Assembly: GCA_022565695.1 (NCBI GenBank)
Contig: JAIUME010000008.1
Coordinates: 62,001-126,000, forward strand
Direction of reading: 5' to 3'
Origin: Alcanivorax sp.
GTDB taxonomy: Bacteria > Pseudomonadota > Gammaproteobacteria > Pseudomonadales > Alcanivoracaceae
DNA length: 64,000 nucleotides
The notes under the pieces are model-generated. The model had not been told where the DNA came from. It searched no databases and saw only the letters and a list, made by a program, of their open reading frames with translations. The translations under genes and the position numbers were made by a program. Position 1 is the first letter of the stretch; each line of letters begins with the position of its first letter. Below, one piece after another: positions 5,735 through 32,480 of this stretch.

Positions 5735-6015
5735 CGGAAGGTATCGGATTCTCGGTAAGAACCGAATCCAATGGTGGCTGAGGGCCCGTCACGTTCAGTA
5801 GTACCAACACACGCTCTGCCAACCTCCCGTTTGGTTTTTAACCAGGAATCCGATACCCACTGAAGCCAGAATCTCGCTCCGGCGTTGAGGCGGGGTGCGC
5901 CCTGTAGGGACCTCTTTGGCCATGGATGGCCAAAGCGCGAGCGACCAGGGATGGCTTGAGCGGTCCCGGAAGGGCGCACCCCGCCTCAACGCCTCTCGCT
6001 GGAGGGTGACCCACA
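5735..6015. repeat. Structured dispersed repeat, copy 1
   Basis: Shares its order and most of its sequence with 32146-32370: an opening block GTCACGTTCAGTAGTA at about 5788, an ATCCGATA block near 5849, the flank TCTCGCTCC at 5872, and a long hairpin. The outer stem is a perfect 23-bp inverted repeat (5881-5903 with 5971-5993). Inside it are GGGACC (5907-5912) with GGTCCC (5962-5967), and a 10-bp hairpin (5914-5923 with 5926-5935). CTCC just before and GGAG just after the outer stem could extend it past a bulge. A partial inverted image of the ATCCGATA/GGTTCTTAC block lies at about 5741-5770. It sits between the islet and the second thioesterase. Function is unknown. Confidence 0.85.
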
Positions 6016-31738: not shown

Positions 31739-31952
31739 GGGCTGGGCTTCTCCATCCTGTGATTGGCCTGCGTTGGCCGGTGAGGGTGACGGACGCAGGC
31801 ATTCTGAGATCAGTATTGTGATGGCACGCCACCTGCGGTCAATGGCGGCCCGCGCCAGGCTGCCCGAATCTGGCGCCAATGCACAATCTGTGGCGTGTAA
31901 TCCGGGGGGATATTTGTTGGCGGTTTTCCATTCTTTGTTGTTCGGAGGATAT
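31739..31952. other. Gene-free stretch upstream of the serine hydrolase
   Basis: This should hold the promoter of the minus-strand serine hydrolase. Frames reading through it have no family match. Nothing else was found up to the start of the inverted-repeat cassette. Confidence 0.4.
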
Positions 31953-32145
31953 GGCCCACGGGGGCGGGGACTGCCTTTCAGGACCCGCCGTGGACCCCCT
32001 TCGGGACCGGCCCACCATCACAGATGGTGGTCGTTCGACTGCGCGCGACGCATGCGTCGCAACACGCTTGTCTCACCCTTGGGGGCTTGTGTTCGACATC
32101 CTTGTCTCACACAGTCCTGAAAGGCAGTCCCCGCCCCCGTGGGCC
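31953..32145. repeat. Cassette bounded by 32-bp perfect inverted repeats
   Basis: Bases 31953-31984 are the exact reverse complement of 32114-32145. The 129-base interior is itself structured: CCACCATC/GATGGTGG around ACA (32012-32030), a 16-bp palindrome GCGACGCATGCGTCGC (32045-32060), and CTTGTCTCAC occurring twice. There is no transposase frame. The right arm runs straight into copy 2 of the structured repeat. It may be a MITE-like element or a structured RNA. Confidence 0.9.
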
Positions 32146-32370
32146 GTCACGTTCAGTAGTATCAACGAACTTCCAGCCAACCGCCGGCTTGGTTCTTACT
32201 GGAAATCCGATAGCTGCCTGACTTCGAATCTCGCTCCGGCGTTGGGCCGGGGTACGCCTTGGAGGGGCCTCTTTGGCCAGGGATGGCCAAAGCGCGAGCG
32301 CCCAGGGACGGCTTGAGCGGTCCCGGAAAGGCGTACCCCGGCCCAACGCCTCTCGCTGGAGGGTGAATCT
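32146..32370. repeat. Structured dispersed repeat, copy 2
   Basis: Same order as copy 1 (5735-6015): GTCACGTTCAGTAGTA, GGTTCTTAC and ATCCGATA blocks, TCTCGCTCC, then the hairpin. Outer stem 32238-32260 with 32328-32350, 23 bp perfect. It differs from copy 1 at four positions, each compensated in the other arm. The inner GGGACC/GGTCCC becomes GGGGCC/GGTCCC, an A-T to G-T change. The apical hairpin is CTTTGGCCA/TGGCCAAAG around GGGA. About 110 bases without a recognised feature follow before the DUF962 gene. Confidence 0.88.
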
Positions 32371-32480
32371 GCGACGAACCTGCGACAGCGTCCACTGCGG
32401 CAGCGGTTGCGTACAAGCCGTCTGGGCGGTCATGCTGGATACTGAAATGCTGAAACAGTCTTTAGTAGAAGGAGTCCCCC

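Follow-up and report, generated by a model that had tools for sequence, protein, structure and literature searches.

Introduction

CsrB/RsmB and RsmX/Y/Z are small RNAs encoded at single loci with their own promoters and terminators, and they carry several GGA loops on short stems. The Rfam clan that includes E. coli CsrB (CL00106) also contains RF01731, or TwoAYGGAY RNA, a candidate RNA of unassigned function that consists of a long stem capped by two AYGGAY stem-loops and was proposed to bind CsrA on the basis of a motif match (PMC4333381). Among DNA repeats, doublets of repetitive extragenic palindromes (REPs), referred to as REP doublets forming hairpins (REPINs) or bacterial interspersed mosaic elements (BIMEs), comprise two inverted palindromes and a spacer as the repeated unit (PMC3116915), while miniature inverted-repeat transposable elements (MITEs) are short, non-coding, and dispersed. 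In this study, we analyzed a 64-kb stretch of a contig from the marine bacterium Alcanivorax sp. (JAIUME010000008.1, positions 62,001–126,000; hereafter, the window) that harbors two copies of an element, designated copy 1 and copy 2. Sequence comparison provides good support for identifying this element as a dispersed TwoAYGGAY-like hairpin repeat.

The element shares features with each of these systems. Like TwoAYGGAY RNA, it has a long stem capped by two stem-loops; however, its loop motif, ANGGAX, is wider than AYGGAY, and it occurs as a dispersed repeat in divergent pairs, a layout for which we met no description of TwoAYGGAY in the literature searched. It resembles the CsrB/Rsm RNAs in its GGA loops on short stems and in its proposed partner, CsrA/RsmA, but each hairpin has only two GGA loops on a very long stem, and many copies are scattered over the genome. 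As in REPINs and BIMEs, the unit is an inverted doublet (39/39 pairs divergent) that is extragenic and present in many copies; REP palindromes, however, span 20–40 bp, whereas the hairpins described here are about 110 nt long with branched heads and have no conserved GTAG/CGTC tag. Some copies have end repeats as in MITEs, but neither a target duplication nor a parent transposon was identified. The literature searched, which did not extend to most subscription papers, described no such repeat for Alcanivorax, Marinobacter, or Halomonas and no repeats acting as CsrA sponges.

In our view, the element is best explained as a mobile repeat of a REPIN-like type that yields transcripts with CsrA/RsmA-binding RNA, an explanation to which we give an even chance of being correct. 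A preliminary description of the locus had suggested either a structured non-coding RNA or a MITE- or REP-like mobile hairpin. Each option captured a part, the element being a dispersed repeat with RNA-like hairpins, but the second hairpin, the ANGGAX loops, which are conserved more than any other part, and the relation to RF01731 had been missed. RF01731 is thereby recast as a dispersed paired repeat with a precise proposed partner.

Compensated pairing in hairpin C

Both copies contain a hairpin, designated hairpin C, whose GGA strand is the plus strand. In copy 1 (5881–5993), the outer stem pairs 5881–5903 with 5971–5993 over 22–23 bp and folds as GGCGTTGAGGCGGGGTGCGCCCT / AGGGCGCACCCCGCCTCAACGCC. 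Its head bears a first ANGGAX loop, AUGGAU (5922–5927, plus strand), on the stem CUUUGGCC/GGCCAAAG and a second one, AGGGAU (5947–5952, plus strand). Hairpin C of copy 2 (32238–32350) folds as GGCGTTGGGCCGGGGTACGCCTT / AAGGCGTACCCCGGCCCAACGCC, with arms at 32238–32260 and 32328–32350 and the plus-strand loops AGGGAU (32279–32284) and AGGGAC (32304–32309). The outer stem previously claimed for both copies as 23 perfect base pairs was found in each of them, and the four reported differences between the 5' arms (A/G, G/C, G/A, and C/T) were all matched in the 3' arms. The inner stem changes from GGGACC/GGTCCC in copy 1 to GGGGCC/GGTCCC in copy 2 and gains a G-U pair, also as claimed. A lone G-U pair is weak evidence for RNA, however, and the case for RNA comes from the many copies considered below.

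The RNA folding z-scores ranged from −7.8 to −10.5 relative to dinucleotide shuffles, and none of 200 shuffles folded equally well, indicating that the hairpin is not a chance structure. When the window was scanned for the signature of two ANGGAN loops on short stems, 16–46 nt apart and flanked by a complementary stem, only the two places already noted matched, and ten shuffled windows gave no match.

Covariation and strand asymmetry

Covariation was examined in 44 distinct C hairpins from four genomes over 38 stem pairs. Paired bases occupied 97.5% of the cells, and 15 of the 38 pairs had changed on both sides, compared with a mean of 6.2 after shuffling. The covariation score was 0.145 versus 0.067 for the shuffled alignments, a value reached by 0 of 500 shuffles, and shifting the pairing partner by a single column abolished the signal. 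These data support a constrained fold, as the preliminary description had supposed; it had named unpaired stem changes or one-off copies as the contrary outcome, and many copies with paired stems were found instead.

The imperfect pairs were distributed asymmetrically between the strands. Read on the GGA strand, G-U outnumbered A-C by 23 to 1 in 47 Alcanivorax C hairpins, by 30 to 13 in Marinobacter/Halomonas-type elements, and by 41 to 4 in other RF01731 loci. When only paired units were considered, the G-U:A-C ratio on each hairpin's own GGA strand was 23:2 for the left member and 21:6 for the right member, the binomial values for which ignore relatedness. Because the G-U excess follows the own GGA strand of each hairpin, RNA is favored over a cruciform or a fixed-strand DNA intermediate.

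Stems of the second hairpin of the unit (hairpin A, see below) contained 943 Watson-Crick, 2 G-U, and 1 A-C pairs despite their very different sequences. Since these stems are almost wholly Watson-Crick, arm-to-arm correction at the DNA level may add to the compensation. If extended to the whole family, this idea would attribute the compensation to DNA copying, i.e., template switching within the palindrome, rather than to selection on the fold. We consider it improbable as a full account, because one-sided changes are numerous in the C stems and in other genera, G-U strongly predominates over A-C, and the loops and heads are conserved well past the needs of pairing.

Two divergent hairpins form the unit

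Alignment of the copies uncovered the half of the unit that had been overlooked, namely hairpin A, which lies in the opposite orientation. The unit begins with an outer flank and hairpin A, whose GGA strand is minus; after a linker of roughly 90 bp, it continues with hairpin C, whose GGA strand is plus, and ends in another outer flank. In copy 2, the conserved outer flank of hairpin A, CCATTCTTTGTTGTTCGGAGG, lies at 31928–31952 on the minus strand and is followed by hairpin A itself (31953–32145, GGA strand minus), which has 32-bp perfect arms (31953–31984/32114–32145) and a first loop GACAAGGAUGUC at 32095–32106 on the minus strand. The linker that joins the divergent hairpins occupies 32146–32237. 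The range 32146–32370 previously assigned to copy 2 does contain hairpin C, but the true start is further left because hairpin A belongs to the copy; the approximate extent of the insertion, judged by comparison with the empty A. limicola site, is 31887–32394.

Hairpin A is absent from copy 1, and an inverted linker-like remnant (5735–5787) stands in its place. The linker, GTCACGTTCAGTAGTA..., extends over 5788–5880 on the plus strand, 5' of the hairpin C GGA strand, and the conserved 3' flank, CTCTCGCTGGAGGGTGACCCAC, over 5994–6015 (plus strand). Thus, of the range 5735–6015 initially given for copy 1, only about 5788–6015 is common to copy 2, and 5735–5787 is not.

A loop-and-stem scan of all loci showed that the 39 distinct neighboring pairs were divergent without exception, with their GGA strands pointing outward and their heads 113–261 bp apart. 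Neighbors in the RF01731 match lists were divergent in 17 cases, convergent in none, and tandem in 4.

Nested within hairpin A of copy 2, in its second GGA loop, is a module of about 85 bp (31995–32076, minus strand; CANGG^GTGAGACAAGCG...). This module, CANGG^GTGAG[G/A]CAAGCG..., lies exactly inside a GGA loop, can occupy either loop of either hairpin, and is found in Alcanivorax and Marinobacter. It looks like an A-type head lacking the GGA, and its insertion destroys the loop motif. Further instances were seen at loci L013, L014, L144, L186–L188, L201, L214, L219, L221, L105, L108, and L140. There are also a hybrid form, in which a new stem bearing an A-type head is combined with a C-type flank, and a doubled form with two A hairpins (L226 400–560, G000:C5; L220 400–900, G005); stems and heads seem to be exchangeable among these forms.

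Relation to RF01731

At the gathering level, no Rfam family matched the 64-kb window. In a comparison with all 4227 families, RF01731 matched copy 1 at 5880–5994 over model positions 1–168, i.e., from end to end, with 35.1 bits and an E-value of 4.9e-4, and the full consensus structure was thus aligned at a significant E-value. A known structural relative therefore exists for an element to which the preliminary description could attach no family name. Other copies scored about 35–43 bits over the full model, the best in the same genome being 42.9 bits. As none of them reached the gathering score of 43 bits, the element falls short of formal membership in the family; nevertheless, homology to RF01731 is likely from the sequence and structure alignments. 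Some copies have AYGGAY in both loops (hairpin A of L004 and L012), copy 1 has AUGGAU and AGGGAU, and copy 2 has AGGGAU and AGGGAC. No RF01731 match to copy 2 was found at E ≤ 10, probably owing to its AGGGAY loops and the insert in its hairpin A.

RF01731 was detected at E ≤ 1e-3 in 44 of 294 Pseudomonadales genomes. Closer scoring revealed 40 to at least 86 places in some of these genomes, the highest counts being 69, 74, and at least 86, and such numbers indicate that RF01731 is a dispersed repeat. Elsewhere in the class it is rarer (18 of 369 genomes at E ≤ 1e-4). The Pseudomonas R178/R200 repeats (PMC2718517) may overlap RF01731 copies.

Heads and the CsrA/RsmE site

Every hairpin is tipped by two short stem-loops, with loops such as AUGGAU, AGGGAU, AAGGAU, and ACGGAC. 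In this ANGGAX pattern, the A and the GGA are constant, while N and often X vary. GGA was present in the second loop of C hairpins in 47 of 47 cases with variable N and X; this loop played no part in sequence selection, and the GGA counts omit copies with the nested module in the loop. A mixed alignment of 49 heads from Alcanivorax, Marinobacter, Halomonas, and others gave the second-loop columns C-A-N-GGA-N-G, which were constant except for N.

In the published high-affinity site of RsmE, an ANGGAX hexaloop immediately caps a stem, and N and X are looped out (PMC4005645). CsrA bridges two sites that are 10–63 nt apart, with the best spacing above 18 nt, and its consensus from systematic evolution of ligands by exponential enrichment (SELEX) is RUACARGGAUGU (PMC7652899). 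In sequence comparison, the heads have this published form, both in the hexaloop on a stem and in the spacing of the pair, and hairpin A heads such as GACAAGGAUGUC and CUACAUGGAUGUA are close to the SELEX sequence. A csrA gene was found in the host genome and, among 37 relatives, in every genome that was at least 90% complete.

Proposed function

In the mechanism that we propose, the unit would spread as mobile DNA and act as CsrA/RsmA-binding RNA. It would comprise two TwoAYGGAY-type hairpins that face away from each other across the linker, hairpin A on the minus strand and hairpin C on the plus strand. Each hairpin would function as RNA, its long stem being free in sequence, required to pair, and serving to carry the head, and a single CsrA/RsmA dimer could grip both of the ANGGAX stem-loops, which are about 22–29 nt apart. 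Because the hairpins diverge, a transcript entering from either direction would contain one GGA-type hairpin, the distal one. Copies may in this way add CsrA-binding sites to adjacent transcripts or jointly serve as a CsrA sponge. More speculatively, and with a chance that we put clearly below even, a self-spreading family would scatter paired CsrA/RsmA-binding RNA hairpins over γ-proteobacterial genomes, where the copies would set free CsrA or tether CsrA to many transcripts, and TwoAYGGAY would be the functional half of a mobile CsrA sponge that extends over the whole genome. If so, repetitive DNA would help to tune the Csr/Rsm system alongside the few dedicated sponge RNAs for which that system is known, and the spread of a repeat that varies in copy number among close species (4 of the 7 congeners carry it) would be tied to global regulation.

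Several observations weigh against a CsrA-binding RNA. The scan beyond Alcanivorax demanded ANGGAN loops, and the loop counts there are therefore not independent. Strand-biased C-to-T mutation could be an alternative source of the G-U excess. No csrA match was found in two drafts of one genus (G017 and G011; 86% and 89% complete), one of which carries RF01731 matches. In all four G017 copies (L284–L287), the second loop reads G/U-U-GGA-X; GGA is kept and the leading A is lost, which could reflect decay without CsrA or simply a quirk of the lineage. Furthermore, the stability of the hairpins greatly exceeds that of classical Rsm RNAs, and a search of copy 2 for a sigma-70-like promoter was negative. 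At Marinobacter/Halomonas loci, crude gene calls placed the GGA strand in the same sense as the upstream gene in 19 cases and in the opposite sense in 17, showing no sense preference.

Distribution and insertion sites

About 15 copies were found in the genome from which the window derives (3.53 Mb, 22 contigs). Within the genus, 4 of the 7 genomes carry the element and the other 3 lack it. By a pattern scan of named genomes, the head was also detected in Marinobacter, Halomonas, Modicisalibacter, and Halospina, where the outer stems are unrelated in sequence yet complementary. At the site of copy 1, A. limicola has a copy that is differently arranged. Copy 2 is absent at its site in six congeners, and in A. 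limicola the flanks of the empty site are separated by about 13–27 bp. As these flanks nearly meet, about 0.5 kb appears to have been gained in the host lineage. No clear target duplication was seen at this empty site; AATCTG is present on both sides, but it is too short to trust. In several copies, GGTTCATCGCG-like ends adjoin, on one side or the other, the run of T residues of an intrinsic terminator (L002, L003, L005–L007, L013, and L213), and this sequence is possibly an end repeat and a target preference.

The element may instead be a mobile repeat that works as DNA only, a REPIN/BIME- or MITE-like unit whose paired inverted hairpins are read by a transposase, either a REP-associated tyrosine transposase (RAYT) or another, with the loops as the signal and no role as RNA. 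The high copy number (69 to at least 86 RF01731 matches in some genomes), the fixed inverted-pair layout as in REP doublets (PMC3116915), the empty site of copy 2, the GGTTCATCGCG-like ends, and the almost perfect A stems are all in keeping with such a repeat. On the other hand, the G-U excess on the own GGA strand of both pair members does not fit a cruciform or a fixed strand, a target duplication was not seen, the hairpin edge has no conserved GTAG, and none of the 13 Y1_Tnp loci checked, those of the same genome included, carried the element. We therefore consider a purely DNA-level repeat possible but the less probable view. A RAYT was rejected as the mover: the element does not flank the Y1_Tnp genes of G000, G002, and G004, and in G005, which carries the element, the only Y1_Tnp is a distant one.

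Several copies adjoin gene ends and terminator T-runs, and only 3 of 31 classified copies lie between divergent genes. This placement would suit a structured element of the 3' untranslated region (3'-UTR) that stabilizes or terminates transcripts between converging genes and has no protein partner of its own. Such an element would not explain why GGA is constant in the loops while N and X are free, and the hairpins show no preferred orientation relative to the upstream gene; we regard this role as unlikely. The proposed mobile repeat with CsrA/RsmA-binding transcripts may have a 3'-UTR role as well.

Seven contig ends of the host assembly (G000) lie in or beside the element, mostly in hairpin A: the starts of C2 and C6 and the ends of C3, C7, C9, C11, and C12. 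One element-linked contig end (L015) has a poly-C artifact, as though the hairpin disrupts sequencing or assembly.
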